Shown here piece by piece: positions 1 through 40,150 of a stretch of DNA of 64,000 nucleotides. Location of the stretch: contig NC_087381.1 of NCBI RefSeq assembly GCF_963675165.1, positions 434,001 through 498,000 on the forward strand, given 5' to 3'. The notes under the pieces were generated by a model. That model did not search any database and had not been told where the DNA came from. It saw only the letters and a program-made list of their open reading frames with translations. The DNA comes from Halichondria panicea. Lineage: Eukaryota > Porifera > Demospongiae > Suberitida > Halichondriidae. Position 1 is the stretch's first letter, and each line of letters opens with the position of its first letter. The position numbers were made by a program, and so were the translations under genes.

Positions 1-994
1 CAAAGGACACATCGGCTACCCTGGTCATAAAGGGGAGGTGGGTCCAAGGGGTCCTATCGGCGATCCCGGCCCAATGGGGTACCGAGGGGTTAAAGGAGAT
101 ATGGGCGAGATCGGTCAACGAGGTGAGGCGGGGGTTAAAGGCGAGCGAGGTTTTAAAGGACATTATGGTTTCCCAGGACACAAAGGCGAGAGTGGCGGGC
201 CAGGTGCCAAGGGGGTTAAAGGAGATCGAGGCTTTGGAGGCAATAATGGACAAAAGGGAGAGAAAGGAATGACGGGAGTGCCAGGTCCACCGGGACCTAT
301 TCCCACTATTCCCTCTGAGGCGTGTGGTGGTCTTGGATGGAGGAAGGTGGCATTCATTGATATGACTGATACTAGCCAAAACTGCCCTCAAGGACTAACA
401 CTGACTGGCTACTCAAAACGATCATGTGGTGCAGCACATACAGGTAATCACGCTTGTTCATCAGTCACCTTTCCTGTTGGTGGAGGTCAATACAGTCGAG
501 TGTGTGGGAGAGCTAAGGCTTATCACTATGGGTGGCTACATTCCTTTTATGGGTATAACCGTGCTTCACATGGTATCAATGCACAGTACGTTGATGGACT
601 AAGCTTCACTCATGGAACACCTAGGACACACATTTGGACATTTGGAGCTGGATTATATCAACGTAGTGGTACTACCCATGGAAACGAACGTTGCCCTTGT
701 AGCCAAGGCAACACCTACAGCCCCCCTCCTTTTGTTGGTAATGATTATTTCTGTGAGAGTGCCGTACATTCTTTGTCTCCAATTGGAAGTAACATATTTC
801 ATGCTAATGATCCACTTTGGGATGGTCAGGGCTGTATCCATGGCAACCCGTGCTGTCAGTTAAACAACCCACCATGGTTTACCAAAACACTACCAACCCC
901 CACAACTGATGATATTGAAATGAGAATGTGCATATGGCAAACTGCAAATGCTGGTAACATTGCTCTTGAACAAATGGAACTATACGTCTACTGA
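1..994 (+). CDS. Collagen-like type II membrane protein, array copy 1 (5' end outside window)
   Basis: The reading frame is open from base 2 and stops at TGA 992-994, so the window edge cuts the gene inside its collagen region. Visible parts are about 30 Gly-X-Y triplets (residues such as KGHYGFPGHKGE), a short PIPTIPSEA linker and the C-terminal domain starting CGGLGWRKVAF and ending MELYVY. No frameshift is seen in the visible part. Variable-window residues are AHTGNHAC after the SKRSCG motif, YGWLHSFYGYNRASH, YQRSGTTHGNERC and IWQTANAG. It lacks the NSS or GISG motif that other copies carry after AGxYQ. The N-terminal tail, membrane helix and coiled coil are inferred from the complete copies. 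The family resembles sponge short-chain collagens; a receptor role is inference. Confidence 0.85.
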   Translation, partial: KGHIGYPGHKGEVGPRGPIGDPGPMGYRGVKGDMGEIGQRGEAGVKGERGFKGHYGFPGHKGESGGPGAKGVKGDRGFGGNNGQKGEKGMTGVPGPPGPIPTIPSEACGGLGWRKVAFIDMTDTSQNCPQGLTLTGYSKRSCGAAHTGNHACSSVTFPVGGGQYSRVCGRAKAYHYGWLHSFYGYNRASHGINAQYVDGLSFTHGTPRTHIWTFGAGLYQRSGTTHGNERCPCSQGNTYSPPPFVGNDYFCESAVHSLSPIGSNIFHANDPLWDGQGCIHGNPCCQLNNPPWFTKTLPTPTTDDIEMRMCIWQTANAGNIALEQMELYVY

Positions 995-2620
995 TGAACT
1001 AGAGACACTGAACATTGATCTGACTCTGTTAGCTACTAGATTGATTTACATACTGTATCCGTATAGCGGGTATTTTCGTATGGGATATTGTAGAGCATTA
1101 TACGAAAAGAATATTCTACCGCATTACGGTAGGTTCGCTCCACATCTGTGACAGTGTGTGTGGTGTGGGCGGGGATAGTATTATACCGTATAATCTGGTT
1201 AGTAAGCACATGCGCCTATAGGGAAAAGAGCAGACCTCTATGCGCCGATTATCCAGGTGCGTTTATAGAGATTAACCACGCCCATGACGTTTCAATGAAG
1301 CAAATCTTCATTAGCTACGTTTTTCTGCAAGAAGTCTATAGTCATATCTGACAGCAGTAACACAACTACCGGTAGTGAAAGAGACTTACATGTAACATCT
1401 ATAAAGAAGTGTGGAGACAAGTTGTTGGGCAGAGAACTGTGCAGAAAACCATGCGCCTTCTATCAAGGCTCTTGGTCTGCTAACCAGTATGCGCCTATTA
1501 GTTGACGTGCGCTTATTAACCAGATTATAATTATGGTAGATACTTAATAATTCACCTGTAGTAACGGAGGTCGTCATCTGATGCTTGACCTCGGTAGCGC
1601 TGTCCATCACACCTCCCCCCGATACACACAGCCGAGGAGCTGAGGGGTGAAAGGGCAAAGCTTGTAGCCTGTGCCCCAAGAAACTCGGGGAATTCATCCA
1701 CACCCACTTTCTGTACAGAGGAGGGGGAGTGGTCGTCAGAAAACAGTATTACCATTATCGCTGAATATAGTCGAGTCATGTCAGTACATCAAACCCATAT
1801 CCCGCACTATATTCATACTATAATTATATAGAGCTACAGTATAATTATTAGTCCTTGACTCACCTGGCCACCTTCCGTGGTTACCAAGGAGACGGGACCA
1901 GTGGGCGTGTATACAGGTACAGGATCTTCCCTCCTCTCCTCATTAGGTATAGTGACAAGTGAGGGACAGGCTCACCGTGACTATTGACACTGAGCTGAAG
2001 TTTATTGATCAATGGATGACTTCATGAACAGAATAAACTAAGCATTGTGTGTAGGTAGACATGCAATGGAGACTGAATACATTGGATACCTGTACGTTTT
2101 TATTTCGACAATCTGAACACAAATTACGAGCTTTCAAAAGATAATAGCTACAACAAGGGCAGAAATTTTGAAAAAAGCAGAACGCTTATATAATTATTAT
2201 AACCTTGCTTTTGTTATAAGCACATCACATTGGAAAGGTAATTCTGAGAGAGCTATTGAAATTGAACGCAAATTACAGGCTCTCAAAGCATAGGGTAGCT
2301 GCCAAAACGGCTGAAAATTTGAGGCAAGCTAAGCCTTTGCTTTGTTTTTGTTAATGCCTGGCAGCTTAGTACACCCACCTTCAGCAGTAGAGCGTTGCAA
2401 GCTTTCTTCTCAATGCCAGTTTTAATCCTCTTGGGATTTGTCGATCACGAGGAGGTCATCAGCCACAATCTGTATATCTGTACTAGCCGTAAACTCCGCC
2501 CAGTTGTCTGACCTCTGACGGCTTGTCTGTACAAAAATAGAAACTAAGAATACATTTAGTATTTGAGGTAAAAGATAATTTGATGGTCAGAAACCAAAAG
2601 CACCGCAACCACTTAGAAAC
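995..2620. repeat. Array spacer 1: inverted-repeat element, block Ec, enolase exon-4 fragment
   Basis: No intact gene seen. Bases about 1055-1130 hold half of the element family with TACCGTATAGCGGGTA ends. A separate 341-bp inverted-repeat element lies at 1189-1529 (ends TATAATCTGGTTAGTAAGC and its near-complement). Bases about 1551-1740 carry exon-like block Ec on the minus strand. Bases 2377-2508 match the 3' part of enolase exon 4 on the minus strand. The promoter block that normally precedes array genes (about 2580-2620) is joined directly to the truncated copy that follows. Confidence 0.7.
1189..1529. mobile_element. Small inverted-repeat element (MITE-like), 341 bp
   Basis: The ends TATAATCTGGTTAGTAAGC (from 1189) and GCTTATTAACCAGATTATA (to 1529) are near-perfect reverse complements, and both arms continue into related ATGCGCCTAT motifs. 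It interrupts the relic intron next to block Eb and is absent from the equivalent spacers. No coding capacity seen. Non-autonomous DNA transposon is inference. Confidence 0.5.
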
Positions 2621-4291: not shown

Positions 4292-5878
4292 ATGTACAGC
4301 ACAAAGATGGGCTCGAATGTGAAGATTATCGGTATCTCAGTGGCAGCGTTTGTGCTACTGACAATCACACTATACGGAGGTCTATCCTTTGCTGTGTGGA
4401 ATCTACATAGCCAAACTGTGAGTCTAAAGGATGAAAATTGGAACCAAGACACTGAATTGCAAAGTCAAATCATTGAATTGCGAAGTCTAAAATCTGAGAA
4501 TGCGAACTTACAAAACCAAATCTCTGAATTGCGAGGCTTTGTCGGAGCTAATCCAAACCCCCACTCGAGTGATGAAGCCATGGTGATGAACACACTAAAG
4601 CGACTAACTCGACAATCTGGCTCCTCTCAAAGTGCTACTGATCTACTTGCTGATGCTCTGGCAGAACTAATTGAAAAGAAACTGTACACTATAATGGACT
4701 GTGCTAGAGATGACGCTGATAATTTAACCGACTGTTCGCTCAAGCCAGGCCCAAAGGGGGACAAGGGATGCCTGGGTGATCAAGGTAAAGAAGGCCCTCA
4801 GGGAATGAACGGAGAGCCTGGGATCAAAGGACACATTGGCTACCCTGGTCATAAAGGCGAGGTGGGTGCAAAGGGTCCTATCGGCAATCCCGGCCCAATG
4901 GGGGACCGAGGGGTTAAGGGAGATATGGGCGAGATCGGTCAACAAGGTGAGGCTGGGAATAAAGGCGAGCGAGGTTTGAAAGGACATTATGGTTTCCCTG
5001 GACACAAAGGCGAGAATGGGGGGCCGGGTGCCAAGGGGGTTAAAGGAGATCGAGGCTTTGGAGGCAATAATGGACAAAAGGGAGAGAAAGGAATGACGGG
5101 GGTGCCAGGTCCACTGGGACCTATTCCCACCACACAACCACCAACTACTGGAGCACTGACTACACAACCACCAACTGTCCCCTCTGAGAAGTGTGGTGGT
5201 CCTGGATGGAGGAAGGTGGCATTCATTGATATGACTAATACTAGCCAAAACTGCCCTCAAGGACTAACACTGACTAGCTACTCAAAACGATCATGTGGTC
5301 GAACACATACAAATGGCCAGGCTTGTTCATCAGTCACCTTTCCTGTTGGTGGGGGTCAATACAGTCGAGTGTGTGGGAGAGCTAAGGCTTATCACTGGGG
5401 GTACCTGAATTCCTTTCTTGCGTATAACCGTAACTCACGTGGTATCAATGCACAGTACGTTGCTGGACTAAGCTTCACTCATGGAACACCCAGGACACAC
5501 ATTTGGACATTTGCAGCTGGTTTATATCAAGCAAACAGTAGTAATAATTTCTTTTTTGGATATGGATACGTTCACTGCCCTTGTAACCCAGGCAACACCT
5601 ACAGCTCCCCTCCTTTTGTTGGTAATGACTATTTCTGTGAGAGTGGCCCAAGCTCTCGTTCTGCAATTGGACCTAACATATTTTACCCTGATGATCCACT
5701 CTGGGATGGTCAGGGCTGTATCCATGGCAACCCGTGCTGTTCGTTAAACAACCCACCGTGGTTTAATAAAACACTACCAACCCCCACAACTGGTGACATT
5801 GAAATGAGAATGTGTATGTGGGAAGCTGCATCTCGAGCTAACATAGCTCTTGAACAAATGGAACTATACGTCTACTGA
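4292..5878 (+). CDS. Collagen-like type II membrane protein with hypervariable C-terminal domain, copy at 4.3 kb (528 aa)
   Basis: Intact and intronless, the longest copy. Residues 1-11 are a short basic tail (MYSTKMGSNVK), about 12-36 a hydrophobic signal-anchor, about 40-80 a heptad-like coiled coil (LRSLKSENANLQNQISELRG), about 85-150 a linker ending in a two-cysteine segment with an NLTD sequon, about 152-277 uninterrupted Gly-X-Y, and about 301-528 a 12-cysteine domain. Only this copy carries a threonine/proline linker with a repeated TTQPPT motif between collagen and domain. Variable windows read TNGQAC, WGYLNSFLAYNRNS, YQANSSNNFFFGYGYVHC and MWEAASRA. The ATG at 4292 was chosen because all copies keep CTACACATGTACAGC there. 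The architecture is like MARCO or membrane collagens with a different head; recognition of particles or self is inference. Confidence 0.9.
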   Translation: MYSTKMGSNVKIIGISVAAFVLLTITLYGGLSFAVWNLHSQTVSLKDENWNQDTELQSQIIELRSLKSENANLQNQISELRGFVGANPNPHSSDEAMVMNTLKRLTRQSGSSQSATDLLADALAELIEKKLYTIMDCARDDADNLTDCSLKPGPKGDKGCLGDQGKEGPQGMNGEPGIKGHIGYPGHKGEVGAKGPIGNPGPMGDRGVKGDMGEIGQQGEAGNKGERGLKGHYGFPGHKGENGGPGAKGVKGDRGFGGNNGQKGEKGMTGVPGPLGPIPTTQPPTTGALTTQPPTVPSEKCGGPGWRKVAFIDMTNTSQNCPQGLTLTSYSKRSCGRTHTNGQACSSVTFPVGGGQYSRVCGRAKAYHWGYLNSFLAYNRNSRGINAQYVAGLSFTHGTPRTHIWTFAAGLYQANSSNNFFFGYGYVHCPCNPGNTYSSPPFVGNDYFCESGPSSRSAIGPNIFYPDDPLWDGQGCIHGNPCCSLNNPPWFNKTLPTPTTGDIEMRMCMWEAASRANIALEQMELYVY

Positions 5879-8265: not shown

Positions 8266-9600
8266 ATGTACAGCACAAAGATGGGCTCGAATGTGAAGTT
8301 CACTATATTTGCGCTACTGACAATCACACTGTACGGTGGTCTTTCCTTTGCTGTGTGGAATCTACATAGCCAAAGCGTGAGTCTAAAGGATGAGAATCAG
8401 AACCAAAACACTGAATTGCGAAGTCAAATCACTGAATTGAGAAGTCTAAAATCTGAGAATGCAAATCTACAAAACCAAATCTCTGAATTGCGAGGCTTTG
8501 TCGGAGCTAATCCAAACCCCCACTCGAGTGATGAAGCCACGGTGATGGACACACTAAAACGACTAACTCGACAATCCGGCTCCTCTCAAAGTGCTACTGA
8601 TCTACTTACTGATAAGGACACATCGGCTACCCTGGTCATACAGGAGAGGTGGGTCCAAAGGGTCCTATCGGCAATCCCGGTCCAATGGGGCACCAAGGGG
8701 TTAAAGGAGATATGGGCGAGATCGGTCAACGAGGTGAGGCAGGGGTTAAAGGCAAGCAAGGTTCGAAAGGACATTATGGTTTCCCTGGACACAAAGGCGA
8801 GAGTGGCGGGCCGGGTGCCAAGGGAGTTAAAGGAGATCGAGGCTTTGGAGGCAATAATGGACAAAAGGGAGAGAAAGGAATGACGGGACCTATTCCCACT
8901 ATTCCCTCTGAGACGTGTGGTGGTCTTGGATGGAGGAAGGTGGCATTCATTGATATGACTAATACTAGCCAAAACTGCCCTCAAGGACTAACACTGACTG
9001 GCTACTCAAAACGATCATGTGGTCGAACACATACAAATGCACACTCTTGTTCATCAGTCACCTTTCCTGTTGGTGGGGGTCAATACAGTCGAGTGTGTGG
9101 GAGAGCTAAAGCATATCACTGGGGGTACCTGTATGCCTTTTATGGGAATAACGCTGGTTCACGTGGTATCAATGCACAGTACGTTGATGGACTAAGCTTC
9201 ACTCATGGAACACCCAGGACACACATTTGGACATTTGCAGCTGGTTACTATCAACAAATCAGTGGTGATAGAAGCTTTAGAATCTTTTGCTGTCATTGTA
9301 ACCCTAGAAACAGCTACGGCGGCTCCCCTCCTTTTGTTGGTAATGACTATTTCTGTGAGAGTGGCGTAAGCTCTCTTTCTGCAATAGGAAACAACATATT
9401 TTACCCTGATGATCCACTCTGGGATGGTCAGGGCTGTATCCATGACAATCCGTGCTGTTCGTTAAACAACCCACCGTGGTTTAACCAAACACTACCAACC
9501 CCCACAACTGATGATAATAATTGAAATGAGACTATGCTTGCATAATTCTGCAACACAAGGTAACATTGCTCTTGAACAAATGGAACTATACGTCTACTGA
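8266..9600 (+). pseudogene. Broken array copy: out-of-frame internal deletion and 3' frameshift
   Basis: The first frame gives tail, helix KFTIFALLTITLYGG and coiled coil. At about 8614 some 172 bases found in other copies are missing (between the LLADA segment and the KGHIGYPG collagen start), which throws the collagen region out of frame. Collagen and C-terminal domain then read in another frame to about 9510, where extra bases (GATGATAATAATTGA) create a stop before the final 25 codons. The original terminal TGA is 9598-9600. Variable windows are still readable: TNAHSC, WGYLYAFYGNNAGS, YQQISGDRSFRIFCC and HNSATQG. The CCHC spacing here differs from the usual CPC. Confidence 0.85.
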
Positions 9601-10996: not shown

Positions 10997-12487
10997 ATGT
11001 ACAGCACAAAGATGGGCTCGAATGTGAAGTTCACTGTATTTGCGCTACTGACAATCACACTATACAGAGGTCTATTCTTTGCTGTGTGGAATCTACATAC
11101 CCAAAGTATTGCCCAAAGTGTGAATCTAAAGGATGAGAATCGGAACCAAAACAATGAATTGCAAAGTCTAAAATCTGAGAATGCAAACCTACAAACCAAA
11201 TCTCTGAATTGCGAGGCTTTGTCGGAGCTAATCCAAACCCCCACTCGAGTGATGAAGCCACGGTGATGGACACACTAAAACGACTAACTCGACAATCTGG
11301 CTCCTCTCAAAGTGCTACTGATCTACTTGCTGATGCTCTGGCAGAACTAATTGAAAAGAAACTCTACACTATAATGGACTGTGCTAGAGATGACGCTGAT
11401 AATTTAACTGACTGTTCGCTCAAGCCAGGCCCAAAGGGGGACAAGGGATGCCTGGGTGATCAAGGCCCTCAGGGAATGAACGGAGAGCGTGGGGTCAAAG
11501 GACACATCGGCTGCCCTGGTCATAAAGGGGAAGTGGGTCCAAAGGGTCCTATCGGTGATCCCGGCCCAATGGGGCACCGAGGAGTTAAAGGAGATATGGG
11601 CGAGATCGGTTCACAAGGTGAGGCGGGGGTTAAAGGTGAGCGAGGTATGAAAGGACATTATGGTTTCCCTGGACACAAAGGCGAGAGTGGCAGGCCGGGT
11701 GCCAAGGGGGTTAAAGGAGATCGAGGCTTTGGAGGCAATAATGGACAAAAGGGAGAGAAAGGAATGACGGGGGTGCCAGGTCCACTGGGACCTATTGCCG
11801 CTACCATTCCCTCTGAGAGGTGTGGTGGTCCTGGATGGAGGAAGGTGGCATCCATTGATATGACTAATACTAGCCAAAACTGCCCTCAAGGACTAACACT
11901 GACTGGCTACTCAAAACGATCATGTGGTCGAACACATACAGATTGGAGAAATTGTTCATCGGTCACCTTTCCTGTTGGTTGTGATCAATACAGTCGAGTG
12001 TGTGGGAGAGCTAAGGCTTATCACTGGGGGCTCCTGCATTCCTTTTATGGGTATCACCATGAATCACATGATATCAATGCACAGTACGTTAATGGACTAA
12101 GCTTCACTCATGGAACACCCAGGACACACATTTGGACATTTGCAGCTGGTGCATATCAAGCAAACAGTAGTGATACTTTCTTTGATCCAGAATATAGAGA
12201 CTTTCACTGCCCTTGTAACCCAGGCAACACGTACGGCTCCCCTCCTTTTGTTTGTAATGACTATTTCTGTGAGTGCAGTATCTAACATATTTTACCCTGA
12301 TGATCCACTCTGGGATGGTCAGGGCTGTATTCATGGAAACCCGTGCTGTTCGTTGAATAACCCACCGTGGTTTAGCAAAACACTACCAACCCCCACAACT
12401 GATAATATTGAAATGAGACTATGTATGAATGGTGATGAAACGCTTGCTAACATTGCTCTTGAACAAATGGAACTATACGTCTACTGA
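10997..12487 (+). pseudogene. Broken array copy with two frameshifts
   Basis: ATG 10997 opens the usual tail and a helix with LYRGLFFAVW, plus a six-residue SIAQSV insertion shared only with the copy at 39261. One A is missing in the run at about 11191-11195, so the frame leaves the coiled coil. The main frame resumes from 11209 through collagen and most of the head domain. A deletion of about two dozen bases near 12271 (after YFCE) shifts it again. The last frame ends at TGA 12485-12487. Variable windows: TDWRNC, WGLLHSFYGYHHES, YQANSSDTFFDPEYRDFHC, MNGDETLA. These windows nearly match the intact copy at 33446 except the first. Confidence 0.85.
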
Positions 12488-14113: not shown

Positions 14114-15580
14114 ATGTACAGCACAAAGATGGGCTCGAATGTGAAGATTATCGGTATCTCAGTGGCAGCGTTTGTGCTACTGACAATCACACTATACGGA
14201 GGTCTATCGTTTGCTGTGTGGAATCTACATACCCAAAGTGTGAGTCTAAAGTATGAGAATGCAAACCTACAGAATCAAATTTCTGAATTACGAGGCTTTG
14301 TCAGAGCTAATCCAAACCCCCACTCGAGTGATGAAGCCACGGTGATGGACACACTAAAGCGACTAACTCGACAATCCGGCTCCTCTCAAAGTGCTACTGA
14401 TCTACTTGCTGATGCTCTGGCAGAACTAATTGAAAAGAAACTCTACACTATAATGGACTGTGCTAGAGATGACGCTGATAATTTAACCGACTGTTCGCTC
14501 AAGCCAGGCCCAAAGGGGGACAAGGGATGCCTGGGTGATCAAGGTAAAGAAGGCCCTCAGGGAATAAACGGAGAGCCTGGGGTCAAAGGACACATCGGCT
14601 ACCCTGGTCATAAAGGGGAGGTGGGTCCAAAGGGTCCTATCGGCAATCCTGGCCCAATGGGGCACCGAGGGGTTAAAGGAGATATGGGCGAGATCGGTCA
14701 ACGTGGTGAGGCGGGGGTTAAAGGCGAGCAAGGTATGAAAGGACATTATGGTTTCCCTGGACACAAAGGCGAGAGTGGCGGGCCGGGTGCCAAGGGGGTT
14801 AAAGGTGATCAAGGCTTTAGAGGCAATAAAGGACGAAAAGGAGAAAAAGGAATGACAGGGATGCAAGGTTCACCGGGACCTATTGCCACAACCGATCCCT
14901 CTGAGGCGTGTGGTGGTCCTGGATGGAGGAAGGTGGCATTCATTGATATGACTAATACTAGCCAAAACTGCCCTCAAGGACTAACACAGACTGGCTACTC
15001 AAAACGATCATGTGGTCGAACACATACAAATTTATACGATTGTTCATCAGTCACCTTTCCTGTTGGTGGGCGTCAATACAGTCGAGTGTGTGGGAGAGCT
15101 AAGGCTTATCAGTGGGGTGAAATGAATTCCTTTTATGGGTATAACCGTGACTCACGTGGTATCAATGAACAGTATGTTGATGGACTAAGCTTCGCTCATG
15201 GAACACCCAGGACACACATTTGGACATTTGCAGGTGGTCGTTATCAAGCAAACAGTAGTGATACTAGCAATAGAATCCTTCGTTGTCCTTGTAACCTAGG
15301 AAACACTTACGGCTCCCCTCCTTTTGTCGGTAATGACTATTTCTGTGAGAGTGGCGTAAGCTCTCGTTCTGGACAGAAATACCAAGGGTTTTTTTCTGAT
15401 GATCCACTCTGGGATGGTCAGGGGTGTATTCATGGCAACCCGTGCTGTCAATTCCCATCGTGGTTTAGGAAAACACTACCAACCCCCACAACTGATAATA
15501 TTGAAATGAGAATGTGCATGTATGGTGATCGAAGATATACTAACATAGCTCTTGAACAAATGGAACTATATGTCTACTGA
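14114..15580 (+). CDS. Collagen-like type II membrane protein with hypervariable C-terminal domain, copy at 14.1 kb (488 aa)
   Basis: Intact single-exon copy with the KIIGISVAAFVLL membrane helix and a shortened coiled coil (the ENWNQDTELQ-type heptads are missing). The collagen stretch includes a unique FRGNKGRKGEKGMTGMQGSP run. Variable windows: TNLYDC, QWGEMNSFYGYNRDS, YQANSSDTSNRILRC and MYGDRRYT. The usually invariant CCSLNNPPWF is CCQFPSWF here, a small in-frame deletion. Twelve cysteines are kept. It shares its TATA-less promoter type with the copies at 4292 and 36482. Surface recognition is inferred from architecture only. Confidence 0.9.
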   Translation: MYSTKMGSNVKIIGISVAAFVLLTITLYGGLSFAVWNLHTQSVSLKYENANLQNQISELRGFVRANPNPHSSDEATVMDTLKRLTRQSGSSQSATDLLADALAELIEKKLYTIMDCARDDADNLTDCSLKPGPKGDKGCLGDQGKEGPQGINGEPGVKGHIGYPGHKGEVGPKGPIGNPGPMGHRGVKGDMGEIGQRGEAGVKGEQGMKGHYGFPGHKGESGGPGAKGVKGDQGFRGNKGRKGEKGMTGMQGSPGPIATTDPSEACGGPGWRKVAFIDMTNTSQNCPQGLTQTGYSKRSCGRTHTNLYDCSSVTFPVGGRQYSRVCGRAKAYQWGEMNSFYGYNRDSRGINEQYVDGLSFAHGTPRTHIWTFAGGRYQANSSDTSNRILRCPCNLGNTYGSPPFVGNDYFCESGVSSRSGQKYQGFFSDDPLWDGQGCIHGNPCCQFPSWFRKTLPTPTTDNIEMRMCMYGDRRYTNIALEQMELYVY

Positions 15581-16755: not shown

Positions 16756-18291
16756 ATGTACAGCACAAAGATGGGCTCGAATGTGAAGATTATCGGTATC
16801 TCAGTGGCAGCGTTTGTGCTACTGACAATCACACTATACGGAGGTCTGTCCTTAGCTGTGTGGAATCTACATACCCAAAGTGTGAGTCTAAAGAATGAGA
16901 ATCAGAACCAAAACACTGAATTGCAAAGTCAAATCTCTAAATTGCGAAGTCTAAAATCTGAGAATGCAAACCTACAGAACCAAATCTCTGAATTGCGAGG
17001 CTTTGTTGGAGCTAATCCAAACCCCCACTTAAGTGATGAAGCCACGGTGATGGACACACTAAAGCGACTATAACTCGACAATCTGGCTCCTCTCAAAGTG
17101 CTACTGATCTACTTGCTGATGCTCTGGCAGAACTAATTGAAAAGAAACTCTACACTATAATGGACTGTGCTAGATATGACGCCGATAATTTAACCGATTG
17201 TTCTCTCAAGCCAGGCCCAAAGGGGGACAAGGGATGCCTGGGTGATCAAGGTAAAGAAGGCCCTCAGGGAATGAACGGAGAGCCTGGGGTCAAAGGACAC
17301 GTTGGCTACCCTGGTCATAAAGGGGAGGTGGGTTCAAAGGGTCCTATCGGCAATCCCGGACCATTGGGGCACCGAGGGGTTAAAGGAGATATGGGCGAGA
17401 TCGGTCAACGAGGTGAGGCGGGGGTTAAAGGCGAGCGAGGTTCGAAAGGACATTATGGTTTCCCTGGACACAAAGGCGAGAGTGGCGGGCCGGGTGCCAA
17501 TGGAGTTAAAGGAAATCGAGGCTTTGTAGGAAATAATGGACAAAAGGGAGAGAAAGGAAAAATGGGGGTACAAGGTCCACCAGGACCTATTGCCGCTAAC
17601 ATTCCCTCCGAGAGGTGTGGTGGTCCTGGATGGAGGAAGGTGGCATTCATTGATATGACTAATACTAGCCAAAACTGCCCTCAAGGACTAACACTGACTG
17701 GCTACTCAAAACGATCATGTGGTGCAACACATACAGATTGGAGAAATTGTTCATCAAGTCACCTTTCCTTGTGGTGGGGGTCAATACAGTCGAGTGTGTG
17801 GGAGAGCTAAGGCTTATCACTGGGGGTACCTGAATTCCTTTCATGGGTATCACTATCGCTCATATGATATCAATGCACAGTACGTTAATGGACTAAGCTT
17901 CACTCATGGAACACTCAGGACACACATTTGGACATTTGTGGCTGGTCGTTATCAGGGAATCAGTGGTGACACTGTAAATATACAACTTCGTTGTCCTTGT
18001 AACCCAGGCAACACCTACGGCTCCCCTCCTTTTGTTGGTAATGACTATTTCTGTGAGAGTGGAGTAAGCTCTGAATCAGCAGTTGGACGTAACTTTTTCC
18101 CTGATGATCCTCTCTGGGATGGTCAGGGCTGTATCCATGGTAACCCGTGCTGTTCGTTGAACAACCCACCATGGTTTAATAAAACACTACCAACCCCCAC
18201 AACTGATGATATTGAAATGAGACTATGCTTGAATAATCATGCATATTGGGCTAACATAGCTCTTGAACAAATGGAACTATACGTCTACTGA
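16756..18291 (+). pseudogene. Broken array copy with two compensating insertions
   Basis: A 2-base insertion at about 17070 (CGACTATAACTCG) creates an immediate TAA after 105 codons. A 1-base insertion at about 17756 (TCATCAAGTC) later restores the original frame, which runs to TGA 18289-18291. Between the two lesions the collagen region is open in another frame. Bases about 17045-17750 are almost identical to about 27410-28115 (same rare YDADNLTDCSL, KGNRGFVGNNG and TDW motifs), showing a recent shared origin with the copy at 27136. Its head domain after the first variable window differs from that copy. Confidence 0.85.
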
Positions 18292-24467: not shown

Positions 24468-25011
24468 TGAACTGAACATTGATCTGACTCTGTTAGCTAC
24501 TGAATATCCTAGTGGCAGTTATAGATATTAGCGTATCACTACAATGTTTTGCAAGTGAAACATCGTTGCAAAATGACCTGAAATGTTGACAGTTTGCTTT
24601 CTAACTTTTACAATATGGCAACATAATGTCATACAAGTTCCAGTATATAGGTCTTATTTTTGCGAAGTCATTAGCACTCGAAAAGTTTGCATAAGTTTGG
24701 TGCTCGCAAAACATTACATTGCAGTAATAATATTGTTCATCTGTAGTAACAGAGGTCATATGATGCTTGACCCCGGCATCACCCACACCTCCCCCTAGTT
24801 GGGCGTGGCTCGACCGTCTTCTGATGGGAGGTCGGGCCACGCCCAACTAACCTCCCCCTAACACACAGCCAAGGAGCTGCGGGGTCAAAGGGCAAAACTT
24901 GTAGTCCAGTTCCATAAGAAACTGGGGTAATTCAGCCACACCCACTTCCTGTACAGGAAGTGGGTGGTCAGAACAGTATTACCATAATCACTGAATATAC
25001 CGTATTACTAG
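24468..25011. repeat. Array spacer 9: short 3' flank and block Ec with hairpin insertion
   Basis: Bases about 24735-24965 are block Ec, interrupted by the 54-nt hairpin listed separately. It ends abruptly at about 25011, where coding sequence of the next, truncated copy begins. The enolase fragment and promoter found in sister spacers are deleted. Confidence 0.65.
24796..24849. mobile_element. 54-nt perfect-ended hairpin insertion with 9-bp target duplication
   Basis: The arms TAGTTGGGCGTGGC and GCCACGCCCAACTA are exact complements and extend to ~20 bp with one mismatch, around a 14-nt loop. ACCTCCCCC flanks it on both sides (24787-24795 and 24850-24858). Sister Ec blocks have a single ACCTCCCCC and no hairpin, so this is a clean insertion. 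Confidence 0.75.
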
Positions 25012-25642
25012 AATGCCCTCAAGGACTAACACTGACTAACTACTCAAAGCGATCATGTGGTTGAACACATACAAATCGATGGGATTGTTCATCAGTCACC
25101 TTTCCTGTTGGTGGGGGTCAATACAGTCGAGTGTGTGGGAGAGCTAAAGCTTATCACTATGCGTACGTGCATTCCTTTAGGGGGTATAACTATGTTTCAC
25201 GTGGTATCAATGCACAGTACGTTGATGGACTAAGCTTCACTCATGGAACACCCAGGACACACATTTGGACATTTGCAGCTGGTCACTATCAAGGAATCAG
25301 TAGTGATACTGAACATAGAATCATTTGTTGCCCTTGTAACCAAGGCAACACGTACGGCTCCCCTCCTTTTGTTGGTAATGACTATTTCTGTGAGAGTGGC
25401 GTAAGCTCTTATTCAGCATATAAATTATGCATGGAGATCACCTTCACCCTGATGATCCACTTTGGGATGGTCAGGGGTGTATCCATGGCAACCTGTGCTG
25501 TTCGTTAAACAAACCACCGTGGTTTACCAAAACACTACCAACCCCCACAACTGATGATATTGAAATGGACTATGCATGATTCAACCTGCATCCGCTGGTA
25601 ACATTGCTCTTGAACAAATGGAACTATAATTATGTCTACTGA
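25012..25642 (+). pseudogene. Truncated array copy: head domain only
   Basis: Starts inside the head domain at NCPQGLTLT with no N-terminus or collagen. The RTHT arginine codon has become TGA (TGTGGTTGA, about 25060). Frame is lost near 25425 where the ...SAYKL segment runs into a rearranged stretch before DDPLWDG, and the ELYVY end is altered by inserted bases (stop TGA 25640-25642). Variable windows: TNRWDC, YAYVHSFRGYNYVS, YQGISSDTEHRIICC. Confidence 0.85.
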
Positions 25643-27135: not shown

Positions 27136-28659
27136 TGTACAGCACAAAGATGGGCTCGAATGTGAAGTTCACTGTATTTGCGCTACTGACAATCAACACT
27201 ATACGGAGGTCTATCTTTTGCTGTGTGGAATCTACATACCCAAACTGTGAGTCTAAAGACTGACGATCGGAACCAAAACACTGAATTGCGAAGAGAATTG
27301 CGAAGTCTAAAATCTGAGAATACAAACCTACAGAATCAAATATCTGAATTCCGAGGCTTTGTCGAAGCTAATCCAAACCCCCACTTAAGTGATGAAGCCA
27401 CGGTGATGGACACACTAAAGCGACTAACTCGACAATCTGGCTCCTCTCAAAGTGCTACTGATCTACTTGCTGATGCTCTGGCAGAACTAATTGAAAAGAA
27501 ACTCTACACTATAATGGACTGTGCTAGATATGACGCCGATAATTTAACCGATTGTTCTCTCAAGCCAGGCCCAAAGGGGGACAAGGGATGCCTGGGTGAT
27601 CAAGGTAAAGAAGGCCCTCAGGGAATGAACGGAGAGCCTGGGGTCAAAGGACACGTTGGCTACTCTGGTCATAAAGGGGAGGTGGGTTCAAAGGGTCCTA
27701 TCGGCAATCCCGGACCATTGGGGCACCGAGGGGTTAAAGGAGATATGGGCGAGATCGGTCAACGAGGTGAGGCGGGGGTTAAAGGCGAGCGAGGTTCGAA
27801 AGGACATTATGGTTTCCCTGGACACAAAGGCGAGAGTGGCGGGCCGGGTGCCAATGGAGTTAAAGGAAATCGAGGCTTTGTAGGAAATAATGGACAAAAG
27901 GGAGAGAAAAGAAAAATGGGGGTACAAGGTCCACCAGGACCTATTGCCGCTAACATTCCCTCCGAGAGGTGTGGTGGTCCTGGATGGAGGAAGGTGGCAT
28001 TCATTGATATGACTAATACTAGCCAAAACTGCCCTCAAGGACTAACACTGACTGGCTACTCAAAACGATCATGTGGTGCAACACATACAGATTGGAAAAA
28101 TTGTTCATCAGTCACCTTTCCTTGTGGTGGGGGTCAATACAGTCGAGTGTGTGGGAGAGCTAAGGCTTATCACTGGGGGCTCCTGCACTCCTTTTATGGG
28201 TATCACCATGAATCACATGATATCAATGCACAGTACGTTAATGGACTAAGCTTCACTTATGGAACACCCAGGACACACATTTGGACATTTGCAGCTGGTT
28301 TATATCAAGCAAACAGTAGTGATACTTTCTTCAATCCTGAATATAGAGACTTTCACTGTCCTTGTAATCCAGGCAACACCTACGGCTCCCCTCCTTTTGT
28401 TTGTAATGACTATTTCTGTGAGAGTGGCGTAAGCTCTCGTTCTGCACTTGATATTAACACATTTTATCCTGATGATCCACTCTGGGATGGTCAGGGCTGT
28501 ATCCATGGCAACCCGTGCTGTTCGTTCAATAACCCACCGTGGTTTACCAAAACACTACCAACCCCCACAACTGATGATATTGAAATGAGACTATGCTTGA
28601 GTGGTGGTGCACCTCATGCTAACATTGCTCTTGAACAAATGGAACTATACGTCTACTGA
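27136..28659 (+). pseudogene. Array copy with a single frameshift in the membrane helix
   Basis: The conserved ATG 27136 is present, but an extra A at about 27195 (AATCAACACTATAC instead of AATCACACTATAC) breaks the frame inside the membrane helix. Everything downstream (478 codons from 27223 to TGA 28657-28659) is open with all domains. The downstream frame has a TGA just 5' of the helix and no suitable ATG. It is either a young pseudogene, a polymorphic null or a base-calling error. The N-terminal and collagen parts match 16756. The head after the first variable window matches 10997 and 33446 (LLHSFYGYHHESHD, ANSSDTFFNPEYRDFHC). Confidence 0.75.
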
Positions 28660-30821: not shown

Positions 30822-32311
30822 ATGTACAGCACAAAGATGGGCTCGAATGTGAAGTTCACTGTATTTGCGCTACTGACAATCACACTATACGGAGGTCTAT
30901 CCTTTGCTGTGTGGAATCTACATACCCAAAGTGCTAGTGTAAAGACTGAAGTCACTGAATTGCGAAGTCTAAAGTCTGAGAATGCAAACCTACAGAACCA
31001 AATCTCTGAATTGCGAGGCTTTGTCGGAGCTAATCCAAACCCCCACTCGAGTGATGAAGCCACGGTGATGGACACACTAAAGCGACTAACTCGACAATCC
31101 AGCTCCTCTCAAAGTGCTACTGATCTACTTGCTGATGCTCTGGCAGAACTAATTGAAAAGAAACTCTACACTATAATGGACTGTGCTAGAGATGACGCTG
31201 ATAATTCAACTGACTGTTCGCTCAAGCCAGGCCCAAAGGGGGACAAGGGATGCCTGGGTAATCAAGGTAAAGAAGGCCCTCAGGGAATGAACGGAGAGCC
31301 TGGGGTCGAAGGACACATTGGCTACCCTGGTCATACAGGAGAGTTGGGTCCAATGGGTCCTATCGGCGATTCCGGCCCAATGGGGCACCGAGGGATTAAA
31401 GGAGATATAGGCGAGATCGGTCAACGAGGTGAAGCGGGGGTTAAAGGTGAACAAGGTTCGAAAGGACATTATGGTTTCCCTGGACACAAAGGCAAGAGTG
31501 GCGGGCCGGGTGCCAAGGGGGTTAAAGGAGATCGAGGCTTTGGAGGCAATAATGGACAAAAGGGAGAGAAAGGAATGACGGGGGTTCAAGGTCCACCGGG
31601 ACCTATTACCACTATTCCGTCTGAGGCGTGTGGTGGTCCTGGATGGAGGAAGGTGGCATTTATTGACATGACTGATACTAGCCAAGACTGCCCTCAAGGA
31701 CTAAACCTGACTGGCTACTCAAAACGATCATGTGGTGCAACACATACAAACAAACAGGCGTGTTCATCGTCACCTTTCCTATTGGTGGGGGTCAATACAG
31801 TCGAGTGTGTGGGAGAGCTAAGGCTTATCACTATGGGGACCTGGGGTCCTTCAGTGGGTACAATCGTGACTCTCGTGGTATCAATGAACAGTACGTTGAT
31901 GGACTAAGCTTCACTCATGGAACACCCAGGACACACATTTGGACATTTGCAGCTGGTACATATCAAGAACTCGGTAGTTATATATTCGCGTACAATAGTA
32001 TCTATCGCTGTCCTTGTAACCCACGCAACACCAACGGCTCCCCTCCTTTTGTTGGCAATGACTATTTCTGTGAGAGTGGTGTAAGCTCTTATTCTGCACG
32101 TGAATCTAACTCATTTTATCCTGATAATCCACTTTGGGATGGTCAGGGGTGTATCCATGGCAACCCGTGCTGTTCGTTGAACAACCCCCCGTGGTTTAGG
32201 AAAAAACTACCAACCCTCACAACTGATGATATTGAAATGAGACTATGCTTAACTAATGTTGCACCTGGTTCTAACATTGCTCTTGAACAAATGGAACTAT
32301 ACGTCTACTGA
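30822..32311 (+). pseudogene. Array copy with a single frameshift in the head domain
   Basis: Open from ATG 30822 through helix (KFTVFALL), coiled coil and collagen to SKRSCGATHTNKQACSS. One base is missing at about 31768 (TTCATCGTCACC instead of TTCATCAGTCACC). The remaining 180 codons are open in the next frame to TGA 32309-32311. It is the sister of the intact copy at 22974. Collagen carries unusual residues (GVEGHIGYPGHTGELGPMG). Variable windows: TNKQAC, YGDLGSFSGYNRDS, YQELGSYIFAYNSIYRC, TNVAPGS. A sequencing error cannot be excluded. Confidence 0.8.
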
Positions 32312-33445: not shown

Positions 33446-34912
33446 ATGTACAGCACAAAGATGGGCTCGAATGTGAAGTTCACTGTATTTGCACTACTGA
33501 CAATCACACTGTACGGAGGTCTATCCTTTGCTGTGTGGAATCTACATACCCAAACTGTGAGTCTAAAGTATGAGAATGCTAACCTACAGAACCAAATCAA
33601 TAAAAAGCAAGATATTGTCGGAGCTAATCCAAACCCCCACTCGAGTGATGAAGCCACGGTGATGGACACACTAAAGCGACTAACTCGACAATCCGGCTCC
33701 TCTCAAAGTGCTACTGATCTACTTGCTGATGCTCTGGCAGAACTAATTGAAAAGAAACTCTACACTATAATGGACTGTGCTAGAGATGATGCTGATAATT
33801 TAACTGACTGTTCGCTCAAGCCAGGCCCAAAGGGGGACAAGGGATGCCTGGGTGATCAAGGTAAAGAAGGCCCTCAGGGAATGAACGGAGAGCCTGGGGT
33901 CAAAGGACACATCGGCTACCCTGGTCATAAAGGGGAGGTGGGTCCAAAGGGTCCTATCGGCGATCCTGGCCCAATGGGGCACCAAGGGGTTAAAGGAGAT
34001 ATGGGCGAGATCGGTCACGAAGGTGAGGCTGGGGTTAAAGGCGAGCAAGGTATGAAAGGAAATTATGGTTTCCCTGGACACAAAGGCGAGAGTGGCGGGC
34101 CAGGTGCCAATGGGGTTAAGGGAGATCGAGGCTTTGGAGGCAATAATGGACGAAAGGGAGAGAAAGGAATGGCGGGTGATCCAGGTCCACCGGGACCTAT
34201 TCCCACTATTCCCTCTGAGGTGTGTGGTGGTCTTGGATGGAGGAAGGTGGTATTCATTGATTTGACTGATACTGGCCAAAACTGCCCTCAAGGACTAAAC
34301 CTGACTGGCTACTCAAAACGATCATGTGGTCGAACACATACAGGTCAAAGAAATTGTTCATCAGTCACCTTTCCTGTTGGTGGGGGTCAATACAGTCGAG
34401 TGTGTGGGAGAGCTAAGGCTTATCACTATGGGCTCCTGCATTCCTTTTATGGGTATCACCATGAATCACATGATATCAATGCACAGTACGTTACTGGACT
34501 AAGCTTCACTCATGGAACACCCAGGACACACATTTGGACATTTGCAGCTGGTTACTATCAAGCAAACAGCAGTGATACTTTCTTCGATCCTGAATATAGA
34601 GATATTCACTGTCCTTGTAACCCAGGTAACACCTACGGCTACCCTCCTTTTGTTGGTAATGACTATTTCTGTGAGAGTGGCGTAGGCTCTCGTTCTACAC
34701 TTGGATATAACACATTTTACCCTGATGATCCACTCTGGGATGGTCAGGGCTGTATCCATGGAAACCCGTGCTGCTCATTGAACAAACCACCGTGGTTTAG
34801 CAAAACACTACCAACCCCCACAACTGATAATATTGAAATGAGACTATGTATGAGTGGTGATGAAACGCTTGCTAACATTGCTCTTGAGCAAATGGAACTA
34901 TACGTCTACTGA
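33446..34912 (+). CDS. Collagen-like type II membrane protein with hypervariable C-terminal domain, copy at 33.4 kb (488 aa)
   Basis: Intact copy, KFTVFALL helix type. The coiled coil is short and ends in a unique INKKQDIVGANPN stretch in place of ISELRGFVGANPN. Collagen has HEGEAGVKGEQGMKGNYG and GMAGDPGPPG variants. Variable windows: TGQRNC, YGLLHSFYGYHHES, YQANSSDTFFDPEYRDIHC, SGDETLA. Unlike most copies the head begins CGGLGWRKVVFIDLTDTGQ. The frame also extends 13 codons upstream to 33407 without an ATG, so 33446 (CTACACATGTACAGC) was chosen. This copy's head matches fragments at 2621, 10997 and 27136, making it a likely partner in sequence exchange. Confidence 0.9.
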   Translation: MYSTKMGSNVKFTVFALLTITLYGGLSFAVWNLHTQTVSLKYENANLQNQINKKQDIVGANPNPHSSDEATVMDTLKRLTRQSGSSQSATDLLADALAELIEKKLYTIMDCARDDADNLTDCSLKPGPKGDKGCLGDQGKEGPQGMNGEPGVKGHIGYPGHKGEVGPKGPIGDPGPMGHQGVKGDMGEIGHEGEAGVKGEQGMKGNYGFPGHKGESGGPGANGVKGDRGFGGNNGRKGEKGMAGDPGPPGPIPTIPSEVCGGLGWRKVVFIDLTDTGQNCPQGLNLTGYSKRSCGRTHTGQRNCSSVTFPVGGGQYSRVCGRAKAYHYGLLHSFYGYHHESHDINAQYVTGLSFTHGTPRTHIWTFAAGYYQANSSDTFFDPEYRDIHCPCNPGNTYGYPPFVGNDYFCESGVGSRSTLGYNTFYPDDPLWDGQGCIHGNPCCSLNKPPWFSKTLPTPTTDNIEMRLCMSGDETLANIALEQMELYVY

Positions 34913-34976
34913 TGAACTAGAGACACTGAACATTGATCTGACTCTGTTAGCTACTTAATATCCTAGATTGCTTTAC

Positions 34977-36430: not shown

Positions 36431-36481
36431 TAATTGAATTGTGTACTTTAGTCAGTGCATTCTTCAAACTGAGAGCTACAC

Positions 36482-37948
36482 ATGTACAGCATAAAGATGG
36501 GCTCGAATGTGAAGATTATCAGTATATCAGTGGCAGCGTTTGTGCTACTGACAATCACACTATACGGAGGTCTATCCTTTGCTGTGTGGAATCTACATAC
36601 CCAAAGTGTGAGTCTAAAGTATGAGAATGCTAACCTACAGAACCAAATCTCTGAATTGCGAGGCTTTATCGGAGCTAATCCAAACCCCCACTCGAGTGAT
36701 GAAGCCACGGTGATGGACACACTAAAGCGACTAACTCGACAATCCGGCTCCTCTCAAAGTGCTACTGATCTACTTGCTGATGCTTTGGCAGAACTAATTG
36801 AAAAGAAACTCTACACTATAATGGACTGTGCTAGAGATGACGCTGATAATTTAACCGACTGTTCGCTCAAGCCAGGCCCAAAGGGGGACAAGGGATGCCT
36901 GGGTGATCAAGGTAAAGAAGGTCCTCAGGGAATGAACGGAGAGCCTGGGGTCAAAGGACACATCGGCTACCCTGGTCATAAAGGGGAAGTGGGTCCAAAG
37001 GGTCCTATCGGCAATCCTGGCCCAATGGGGCACCGAGGGGTTAAAGGAGATATGGGCGAGATCGGTCAACGAGGTGAGGCGGGGGTTAAAGGCGAGCGAG
37101 GTTTTAAAGGACATTATGGTTTCCCTGGACACAAAGGCGAGAGTGGCGGGCCGGGTGCCAAGGGGGTTAAAGGAGATCGAGGCTTTGGAGGCAATAATGG
37201 ACGAAAGGGAGAGAAAGGAATGACGGGGGTGCAAGGTCCACCGGGATCTATTCCAACTACTATTCCCTCTGAGGCGTGTGGTGGTCTTGGATGGAGGAAG
37301 GTGGCATTCATTGATATGACTGATACTAGCCAAAACTGCCCTCAAGGACTAACACTGACTGGCTACTCAAAACGATCATGTGGTCGGACACATACAAATG
37401 CATGGGCCTGTTCATCAGTCACCTTTCCTGTTGGTGGGGGTCAATACAGTCGAGTGTGTGGGAGAGCTAAGGCTTATCAGTGGGGTGAAATGAATTCCTT
37501 TTTGGGGTACCATAGACATTCACGTGGTATCAATGCACAATACGTTGCTGGACTAAGCTTCACTCATGGAACACCCAGGACACATATTTGGTCATTCGCA
37601 GCTGGTTTATATCAAGGAATCAGTGGTACCAACTATGGAATCCATCGCTGTCCTTGTAACCCAGGCAACACTGCCAGCCCCCCTCCTTATGTTGGTAATG
37701 ACTATTTCTGTGAGAGTGGCGTAAGCTCTAATTCAGCACGTGGAGGTCGCCTTTACCCTGCTGATCCACTCTGGGATGGTCAAGGCTGTATCCATGGTAA
37801 CCAGTGCTGTTCATTGAACAACCCACCGTGGTTTTTTAAAACACTACCAACCCCCACAACTGATGATATTGAAATGAGATTATGCTTGACTAATGCAGCA
37901 TCAATTTCTAACATTGCTCTTGAACAAATGGAACTATACGTCTACTGA
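36482..37948 (+). CDS. Collagen-like type II membrane protein with hypervariable C-terminal domain, copy at 36.5 kb (488 aa)
   Basis: Intact copy with a KIISISVAAFVLL helix and the short LKYENANLQNQISELRG coiled coil; overall closest to the copy at 14114 in the N-terminal half and promoter. Variable windows: TNAWAC, QWGEMNSFLGYHRHS, YQGISGTNYGIHRC and TNAASIS, with a distinctive SSNSARGGRLYPADPLWDG segment. The invariant HGNPCC is HGNQCC and IWTFAAG is IWSFAAG. The second window shares QWGEMNSF only with 14114, while the third is of the GISG type found in 16756, 19550, 25012 and 39261, so different windows have different relatives. Confidence 0.9.
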   Translation: MYSIKMGSNVKIISISVAAFVLLTITLYGGLSFAVWNLHTQSVSLKYENANLQNQISELRGFIGANPNPHSSDEATVMDTLKRLTRQSGSSQSATDLLADALAELIEKKLYTIMDCARDDADNLTDCSLKPGPKGDKGCLGDQGKEGPQGMNGEPGVKGHIGYPGHKGEVGPKGPIGNPGPMGHRGVKGDMGEIGQRGEAGVKGERGFKGHYGFPGHKGESGGPGAKGVKGDRGFGGNNGRKGEKGMTGVQGPPGSIPTTIPSEACGGLGWRKVAFIDMTDTSQNCPQGLTLTGYSKRSCGRTHTNAWACSSVTFPVGGGQYSRVCGRAKAYQWGEMNSFLGYHRHSRGINAQYVAGLSFTHGTPRTHIWSFAAGLYQGISGTNYGIHRCPCNPGNTASPPPYVGNDYFCESGVSSNSARGGRLYPADPLWDGQGCIHGNQCCSLNNPPWFFKTLPTPTTDDIEMRLCLTNAASISNIALEQMELYVY

Positions 37949-39260
37949 TGAACTAGAGACACTGAAAATCGATCTGACTCTGTTAGCTACTAGATTTACA
38001 GAATTATTGTGACATTTTTAGTTTTATATAGAGTGATTACTGTATTAATACAATGTTTTGCAAGCGAAAATCTTTGCAATTGAGTTAAATTATATACCTG
38101 AAATGTGTTGACAATTTGCGTTCTAACTTTTGCGATAATTATGGCAATGATCATGATGTCATACAAGCTAGTTCCAGAGGTATTTACAATCCTTACTTTT
38201 TGCGAAGCCTTTAGTACTCGCAAAGTTTGGTGCTCGCAAAACAATAAGTATACGGTTATACTTAATTGTTCACCTATAGTAACAGAGGTCATCTGATGCT
38301 TGACCCCGGTAGCGCTGTCCATCACCCACACCTCCCCCGACACACACAGCCGAGGAGCTAAGGGGTTATTAAAGGGGCACGCTTGTAGTACAGTGCCCCA
38401 GGAAACTCAGCCACACCCACTTCCTGTACAGAGGAGGGGGTGGTTACTAGAACAGTATTACCACAATATCTACTGAATATATGCAGCCGAGTCATGTCAG
38501 TACATCAACCATCGTACTGTGTATATATAATTATTAGTCCTAAGCAAGTTTATTGATCAATGGATGACTTCATGAACAGAATGAACTAAGCATTGTGTGT
38601 GTATAGGCAGACATGCAGTGGAGACTGAATACATCGGATACCTGTACGTTGTTTGTGTGTGTATATATAACAATATTCCTAGGTCATTCCATCCCAGGGT
38701 ATAGGTGTAGACATGCAGTGGAGACTGAATACATTGGATACCTGTAGCTATAATATAAGTCTTTAATTTGACAATTTGAACACAAATTACGGGCTCTCAA
38801 AGATAGCTACCACAACGGCAGATAGCATTTGCTTTTGAATAATCACAAAACTTGTATCTAATTATAAGGTAGTTCTGAGAGCTATTGAATGCATAATTAG
38901 TCGTGAAATTGGACGTTCTGAACACAAATTACGGGCTTTCTTTGTTTTGTTATAATATAGTACACTCACCTTCAGCAGTAGAGCGTTGCAAGCTTACTTC
39001 TCAATGCCAGTCTTAATCCTCCTCTTAGGATTTGTCACGAGGACGTCAATCTGTATATCTGTACTAGCCGTAAACTCCGCCCAGTTGTCTGAACTCTGAC
39101 GGCTTGTCTGTGCAAAAATAGAAATAGAATACATTTAAAAGGTAATTTGATGGTCAGAAACCAAAAGCACCACAACCACTGAAACCTTGTAACGTGTGGG
39201 AATAGGTTACTGTATAAATTGTGTACTTTAGTAGAGCAGCAACTTTGAACTGAGCTACAC
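37949..39260. repeat. Array spacer 14: block Ec and enolase exon-4 fragment
   Basis: Bases 37949-38260 parallel 5879-6200, acting as an empty site for the 6201-7315 element. Block Ec is about 38265-38445. A short segment (ACATGCAGTGGAGACTGAAT) is duplicated at about 38612 and 38711. The enolase exon-4 fragment is 38967-39089, followed by the TATA promoter. Confidence 0.65.
39213..39218 (+). promoter_or_regulatory. Candidate TATA box of array copy at 39261
   Basis: TATAAA 48 bp before the ATG in the usual CTGTATAAATTGTGTACTTT context. Confidence 0.5.
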
Positions 39261-40150
39261 ATGTACAGCACAAAGATGGGCTCGAATGTGAAGTTCACTG
39301 TATTTGCGCTACTGACAATCACACTATACAGAGGTCTATTCTTTGCTGTGTGGAATCTACATAACCAAAGTATAGCCCAAAGTGTGAGTCTAAAGGATGA
39401 GAATCGGAACCAAAACAATGAATTGCGAAGTCTAAAATCTGAGAATGCAAACCTACAGAATCAAATCTCTGAATTGCGAGGCTTTGTCGGAGCTAATCCA
39501 AACTCCCACACGAGTGATGAAGCCATGGTGATGGACACACTAAAGCGACTAACTCGACAATCCGGCTCCTCTCAAAGTGTGGTCGGACACATACAAATAG
39601 TATAGATTGTTCATCAGTCACCTTTCCTGTTGGTGGGGATCAATACAGTCGAGTGTGTGGGAGAGCTAAGGCTTATCACTATGGGTGGCTATATTCCTTT
39701 CTTGGGTATCACCAGTCACGTGGTATCAATGCACAGTACGTTGATGGACTAAGCTTCACTCATGGAACACCCAGGACACACATTTGGACATTTGCAGCTG
39801 GATTATATCAAGGAATTAGTGGTGATACTAACTATAGAAACTATCGTTGCCCTTGTAACCCAGGCAACACCTACACCTCCCCTCCTTTTGTTGGTAATGA
39901 CTATTTCTGTGAGAGTGGCGTAAGCTCTCGTTCTGCAGTTGGACGTAACATATTTTACCCTGATGATCCACTCTGGGATGGTCAGGGCTGTATCCATGGC
40001 AACCCATGCTGTTCGTTGAACAAACCACCGTGGTTTACCAAAACACTACCAACCCCCACAACTGATGATATTGAAATGAGAATGTGCATATGGCAAATTG
40101 CAGTAGCTGGTAACATAGCTCTTGAACAAATGGAACTATACGTCTACTGA
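39261..40150 (+). pseudogene. Array copy lacking the collagen region (~0.62-kb deletion)
   Basis: Tail, helix (LYRGLFFAVW, as in 10997) and coiled coil are open to RQSGSSQS. The sequence then jumps to the GRTHT part of the head domain, out of frame, giving a stop after 114 codons. The head is open in another frame from 39653 to TGA 40148-40150. Variable windows: TNSIDC, YGWLYSFLGYHQS, YQGISGDTNYRNYRC, WQIAVAG. It is the last copy of the array, next to the intact enolase gene. Confidence 0.85.

Follow-up and report, generated by a model that had tools for sequence, protein, structure and literature searches.

The 64,000-nucleotide stretch of the Halichondria panicea genome analyzed here (C5:434001-498000, hereafter the window; genome scans were run on one assembly of 131.5 Mb in 39 contigs) carries in its first 40 kb a tandem array of genes for collagen-like proteins with a cysteine-rich C-terminal head. 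A tblastn search with one intact copy (4292-5875) as the query recovered 15 head-to-tail copies, all on the + strand, at positions 2-40147, in agreement with an earlier note on this DNA that had described 15 same-orientation copies within 40 kb. Matched pieces share 62 to 90% protein identity with copy 3, so chance matching is no concern. Five copies, the number that had been called intact, are complete open frames within the window: copy 3 (4292-5878, 528 codons; head 5192-5875), copy 6 (14114-15580, 488 codons; head 14909-15577), copy 9 (22974-24467, 497 codons; head 23784-24464), copy 13 (33446-34912, 488 codons; head 34223-34909), and copy 14 (36482-37948, 488 codons; head 37277-37945). 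A sixth must be added to that number, since copy 1, of which the window holds a partial rod and the head (1-994; head 323-991), is an open frame of 496 codons once the ~0.5 kb lying 5′ of the window is read, so that 6 of the 15 copies are intact. As claimed, these genes are intronless in their coding part, the intact frames running uninterrupted from ATG to stop; an intron in the 5′ untranslated region would escape a reading of frames.

The other copies, also on the + strand, were located by tblastn, with frames read as well for copies 4 and 12. Copy 2 (2627-2941) is a head fragment with a stop, copy 4 (8266-9524; tblastn match, 8266-9515) is frameshifted and truncated, copy 5 (10997-12484) is broken and lies in three frames, and copy 7 (16756-18288) consists of three pieces in differing frames. 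Copies 8 (19552-20062) and 10 (24873-25626) are head fragments in two and three frames, respectively; copy 11 (27196-28659; head 27970-28656) is an open frame without a start codon and membrane anchor; copy 12 (30822-32311) has a frameshift in the head; and copy 15 (39261-40150), the last of the array, has an internal deletion. No additional head was found in C5:238811-434323 and C5:474147-537944 among the matches listed, which are the best-scored candidates of the genome scan. Flanks are homologous between copies, with identities of up to 97% over ~500 bases (copies 9 and 12) and of 92% (copies 6 and 14), and the array therefore grew by tandem duplication. Self-matches within the window cover at least 95% of 33 of the first 40 one-kilobase bins and at most 57% of every bin past ~41 kb. 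Just upstream of copy 9, a 66-base unit occurs in three near-identical copies (22352-22551) and is partly common to the region upstream of copy 12.

Intact copies are built in a single order: a short lysine-bearing N-terminal segment, a hydrophobic stretch, a coiled-coil-like segment, a constant two-cysteine segment, a Gly-X-Y rod, a linker, and the head. The hydrophobic stretch (best 19-residue Kyte-Doolittle mean, 1.85 to 2.14) may be a signal-anchor or a cleaved signal peptide, and either fits. We recognized the coiled coil by eye only, from heptad-like leucines, and its length varies between copies. Most copies have a rod of 42 uninterrupted Gly-X-Y triplets; the count is 44 for two members of a sister array at C5:214-239 kb and 38 for copy 11. 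All five intact window proteins match the PF01391 collagen repeat at 66 to 71 bits, above a cutoff of 27.2, confirming the rod that the earlier note had read. The linker contains a TTQPP repeat in some copies. The head spans ~225 residues, and the 12 cysteines once ascribed to it are present in five of seven long copies; of the remaining two, one has 13 and one has 14.

The window array is one clade of a larger head family. A head query returned at least 152 matches genome-wide, a lower bound in that 150 of 216 first-look candidates were scored, and a count in which broken genes figure more than once; about 100 near-full-length, stop-free heads on 13 contigs were counted by hand among the matches listed. 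Collagen-rod stalks occur in the window clade, in the sister array, in single genes at C5:2.44 and 6.26 Mb and, as a short rod, in L044. Heads of C15 stand on Thr/Ser-rich (mucin-like) repeats of widely differing lengths (L027 to L030 and L051 to L055), those at C5:880-950 kb have secreted-looking coiled-coil stalks, and for L031 to L034, L039, and L040 the predicted stalk is of the type II membrane kind, preceded by a long cytoplasmic tail. A membrane anchor was called in 22 of the 49 frames scanned. Half of these, 11 frames, fall outside the window clade, and 7 of the 11 carry a YxxI/L/V/M/F, YxxP, or NPxY motif in the predicted tail. L036 has its motif in a tail of 15 residues, and no such motif was found in L030, L038, L046, and L049. 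The predicted tails of L031 to L034, L039, and L040 are 63 to 103 residues long and bear YETM, YETI, YDVP, YELI, YDEI, or NPAY, and these may be candidate signaling members of the family. The genome also gave 213 SRCR matches, 32 fibrinogen-domain matches, and at least 141 collagen-repeat matches; a dense one-strand run of fibrinogen-domain matches at C6:4161286-4209973 is possibly another diversified tandem family.

An excess of amino acid change in the variable windows of the head had been named beforehand as a test of the idea that these genes form a diversified repertoire, and such an excess is present. Across 13 sequences, copy 11 included, the nonsynonymous distance (dN) was 0.142 in the head, 0.073 in the N-terminal part, and 0.074 in the rod and linker, with a synonymous distance (dS) of 0.16 to 0.18 throughout; dN/dS was 0.80, 0.43, and 0.45 in the head, N-terminal part, and rod, respectively. 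Site tests used 12 intact coding sequences (six from the window array, four from the sister array, and the two singles) and excluded copy 11. For heads, model M2a was favored over M1a, with twice the log-likelihood difference (2dlnL) at 222.9 and 16% of sites at an omega of ~6. Because the variable windows show elevated synonymous change as well, we fitted a grid model with a synonymous rate (alpha) and a nonsynonymous rate (beta) for each site, under which P(beta>alpha) exceeded 0.9 at 32 of 225 head sites versus 5 of 260 stalk codons; the two halves of the head, each with its own tree, gave 12 and 26 such sites. Differences between copies are concentrated in the head but are not, as had been claimed, confined to it, given the stalk dN of 0.073 to 0.074, the variable length of the coiled coil, and the five stalk sites. 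In copy 3, the sites with P(beta>alpha) above 0.9 mark approximate loops between 5312 and 5842 on the + strand, namely V1 (5312-5323), V2 (5399-5443), V3 (5525-5581), V4 (5651-5689), V5 (5747-5773), and V6 (5816-5842), with coordinates derived by hand from head residue numbers; selected head residue 139 falls outside them.

The same pattern was found in the C15 clade, where 42 of 223 head sites were selected (seven heads, 55 to 59% identical to the window head), and 16 sites in a smaller run with four heads. In 220 common columns, the 31 window sites and 41 C15 sites overlap at 21 (Fisher p = 3.8e-11), an overlap attained by 0 of 219 circular shifts. Tree-free, out-of-sample counts, in which columns were chosen in one clade and counted in the other, gave ratios of nonsynonymous to synonymous change (pN/pS) of 1.48 (95% interval, 1.16 to 1.87; 41 columns) and 1.65 (1.21 to 2.49; 31 columns); the other columns gave 0.51 and 0.59. 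We conclude that diversifying selection acts on the head loops and that in the C15 clade it hits the same positions. The loops of C15 are diversified no less strongly than those of the window clade. Two arrays whose heads are preceded by a cap (described below), sampled with just 6 and 7 heads, had 2 of 222 and 3 of 219 selected sites and 3 when pooled, at mean identities of 0.79 and 0.83 (window clade, 0.79; C15 clade, 0.81), and the one at 880-950 kb, when run with one extra sequence (L031), had zero.

Stalks and loops also differ in how they share sequence. In eight copy pairs, identical runs of polymorphic sites are longer than permutation allows (global p < 0.05; copy 11 included). These shared tracts all lie in the N-terminal part or the rod, and some link the window with other arrays, including C5:6.26 Mb, which suggests gene conversion of the stalk. 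In the pairwise homoplasy index (PHI) test, which like the loop comparison below excluded copy 11, the N-terminal part (p = 0.001) and the rod (p = 0.021) reached significance, whereas the head (p = 0.086) and the sequence as a whole (p = 0.176) did not; within the head, 62% of informative site pairs are incompatible. Distances in five loops showed no significant correlation in 9 of 10 pairs, V1-V2 being the exception (r = 0.49, p = 0.009), and none correlated significantly with the head backbone (lowest p = 0.086); the strongest correlation, between head backbone and stalk, was borderline (r = 0.69, p = 0.054). Altogether, these results suggest a homogenized stalk and loops with separate histories.

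As searched here, neither Pfam nor NCBIfam, the latter a library made for prokaryotes, holds a family model for the head core. At an E value of ≤1, Pfam placed no family on the head of the five intact window proteins except for one weak, chance-like match, and a profile of 25 head-core sequences found nothing in the PDB up to an E value of 10. Most of the siblings that were read have, as judged by eye, an NPASSC...SGEYWI...VYCDM...GGW segment just before the core (L047 does not), and a profile of such capped heads gave weak matches to fibrinogen beta in the PDB (best E value, 0.0023) over profile positions 4 to 83, which take in the cap and the beginning of the core. Of the 26 COLFI matches in the genome, 16 are found no more than 300 bases upstream of a listed head (hand count), 12 of the 16 being over the cutoff (best E value, 4e-8); they fall within about positions 3 to 78 of COLFI, and the rest of the model is unmatched at these 16 places. 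When sibling heads were scanned singly at an E value of ≤0.1, 6 of 17 matched COLFI and 5 of 17 matched Fibrinogen_C. The NCBIfam fibrinogen-like YCDxxxxGGGW domain (NF040941) was matched by L050 at 34.4 bits against a cutoff of 30 and, below it, by L025 and L032 (22.4 and 25.3 bits), while the window protein scanned did not match it at an E value of ≤0.01; by that measure, it carries no YCD..GGGW cap. In hhalign comparisons, sibling heads aligned with seven fibrinogen domains of the genome over 48 columns of the cap only (probability, 89.7%; E value, 1.8e-6), window heads aligned with sibling heads over nearly their full length (100%; 214 columns), and window heads aligned with the same seven fibrinogen domains at a probability of 1.2%. 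As judged from these profiles, the head consists of a cysteine-rich core, which elsewhere stands behind a fibrinogen/COLFI-type cap; neither the window clade nor the C15 clade has this cap.

Other identities for the head were considered and set aside. The earlier note had likened it to the head of sponge short-chain collagens, a likeness that did not hold up: the five window proteins have no match to PF01413, the spongin/collagen IV NC1 domain, at an E value of ≤1, and the only PF01413 locus in the genome is at C9:6766511-6766849, beside collagen-rod matches. Nor is there a match in these five proteins to the SRCR domain (PF00530, E value of ≤1) or, for the core as an ordinary fibrinogen domain, to PF00147, sibling heads aligning with fibrinogen through the cap only. 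Nothing in the part of PMC7058181 available to us ties Cthrc1, compared by description only, to the head. A prokaryotic or viral origin was sought by scanning GTDB and IMG/VR with short peptide patterns, one and two in number, which would miss distant relatives; of the 12 and 29 matches to these patterns, none is a confirmed relative. Among the open-access titles and abstract beginnings listed as matches, nothing evidently describes the head family or this architecture in sponges. Uncharacterized head relatives probably exist in annotated sponge proteomes.

Downstream, the array is adjoined on the − strand by an Enolase gene of several exons (42178-43945; Pfam Enolase_N, 4e-54, and Enolase_C, 4e-46), so introns do occur in a neighboring gene. 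Farther along the window are a 38-base unit repeated in tandem 12.2 times (45673-46137), an HMG-box exon on the − strand (56592-57101; 8.5e-11), and two + strand open frames (52137-52493 and 52385-53233) with no Pfam match at an E value of ≤0.001, the second of which ends in an HLDIRSDN...LIDLD stretch that looks kinase-like by eye.

The reading we favor, at a probability of roughly 0.58, is that these genes specify recognition proteins of the cell surface, carried on collagen stalks and forming a family diversified in the germline; given the selection tests, the diversified surface repertoire first proposed for this locus remains the best reading. A short cytoplasmic tail and a signal-anchor would hold the coiled coil and the 42-triplet rod, and three chains would trimerize and show three heads ~35 nm from the membrane, as estimated from the rise per residue, such that weak single contacts could sum. 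In each head, a cysteine-rich scaffold would stay constant while about six loops, presumably exposed at the surface if the proteins are oriented as we suppose, are selected to differ. Tandem duplication would create and destroy copies and gene conversion would even out the stalk, with the loops keeping their own histories. Probable ligands are surface molecules of microbial, food-particle, or nonself origin, with binding of a lectin-like or FREP-like kind, and the long-tailed siblings could signal. Microbe recognition, food capture, and allorecognition may all fit equally. Positive selection on the binding region is one criterion by which immune receptors are recognized, and it is found here in the region presumed to bind, if the loops are indeed what makes contact.

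Several observations weigh against recognition as the function. Nine of the 15 copies are broken, being truncated, frameshifted, interrupted or, in copy 11, without a start and anchor. The cytoplasmic tail of the window proteins, as cut by script, has ~9 to 11 residues and no Y-based or NPxY motif, so any signaling would require a partner, and the motifs in sibling tails might be due to chance. AlphaFold2 models of 14 window head sequences reached a mean predicted local distance difference test score (pLDDT) of 40.8, too low for the models to be used to judge loop exposure. Recombination inflates tree-based selection tests, stalk codons likewise favor M2a (2dlnL, 49.5), synonymous change is itself raised in the loops, and loop saturation could be an alternative cause of the missing correlation between loops. 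Random six-head subsets of the window clade gave 36, 30, and 0 selected sites, so small samples are unstable. Finally, there is little diversifying selection in the two capped arrays, and we do not extend the recognition reading to the whole family.

Alternatively, the proteins might be structural or matrix short collagens, secreted after N-terminal cleavage, whose heads vary through relaxed constraint and birth-and-death. This is unlikely: the collagen rod and the many broken copies would suit it, as would the end of the hydrophobic segment (...LSFA-VW), which by inspection and a familiar rule is also apt for signal-peptide cleavage, but relaxed constraint predicts that beta equals alpha, and the out-of-sample pN/pS values of 1.48 and 1.65 have lower bounds above 1. 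Furthermore, the same loops are selected in the C15 clade, which is without a collagen rod, and the window proteins have no NC1 domain. It is similarly improbable that the diversified heads serve allorecognition or gamete recognition, marking self versus nonself cells and not microbes. Sponges display allorecognition, and hypervariable loops on a membrane anchor suit such a role equally well, but the data represent one haplotype, and nothing in them separates allorecognition from microbe recognition. Less likely still is that the selection signal is an artifact of gene conversion and misaligned, length-variable loops in a decaying tandem cluster, which the 62% of incompatible head site pairs, the indels in loop V3, the 9 of 15 broken copies, and the one of three small subsets without a selected site would favor, but with which neither the agreement of the tree-free out-of-sample counts in a second clade nor the mere 2 to 3 sites found in capped arrays by the same analysis is easily squared.

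The recognition reading can be carried further, although we hold this extension as doubtful. An early-branching animal might have built a germline repertoire of its own, in which a fibrinogen/COLFI-associated head lost its ancestral cap, moved onto collagen and mucin stalks, and became diversified in its loops. Since gene conversion would keep the stalks interchangeable, chains from different copies could cotrimerize and present combinations of heads, which would amount to a repertoire, either anticipatory or for allorecognition, that does without somatic recombination.

Class A scavenger receptors such as MARCO and SR-A are type II membrane proteins with a coiled coil, a collagen rod, and a C-terminal cysteine-rich head. 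The window proteins resemble them in the rod and a C-terminal cysteine-rich head, and may do so in a predicted type II topology, unless the hydrophobic segment is cleaved, and in a coiled coil judged by eye; but this head is not SRCR, and the genes are intronless, loop-diversified tandem copies. FREPs, ficolins, and FIBCD1 combine a stalk with a globular C-terminal head. The window proteins share that plan, their siblings bear the fibrinogen-like YCD..GGGW cap, and snail FREPs, in the excerpts available to us, likewise form a diversified multigene family; however, the head core has no PF00147 match, and window heads align with none of the seven fibrinogen domains compared. The fibrillar collagen C-propeptide (COLFI) is resembled by the sibling cap only, at COLFI positions of about 3 to 78, whereas window proteins have no COLFI match at an E value of ≤1. 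Spongin short-chain collagens and collagen IV NC1 proteins also pair a short collagen rod with a C-terminal domain of conserved cysteines, as described in an excerpt of PMC5395295, but the window proteins have no C4/NC1 match, as judged by profile and not by alignment with spongin. The same excerpt gives collagen IV as present in homoscleromorphs and undetected in demosponges. The expanded SRCR and NLR families of sponges are likewise large and partly tandem (158 of 296 genes in a sponge SRCR family, according to an excerpt of PMC10855680), but their domains differ, and no SRCR lies within the window among the matches listed.

In the excerpts at hand, the literature on microbe recognition in sponges deals chiefly with SRCR, NLR, Ig, GPCR, C-type-lectin, and fibrinogen-domain genes. 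Diversified receptor families are already known from invertebrates. The head family described here is large and is matched by no model of Pfam or NCBIfam; one of its branches evolves like a recognition interface, and with candidate contact residues listed, the question of its ligand becomes directly testable. The finding is relevant to how frequently diversified receptor repertoires have been assembled in animals out of fibrinogen-type modules.

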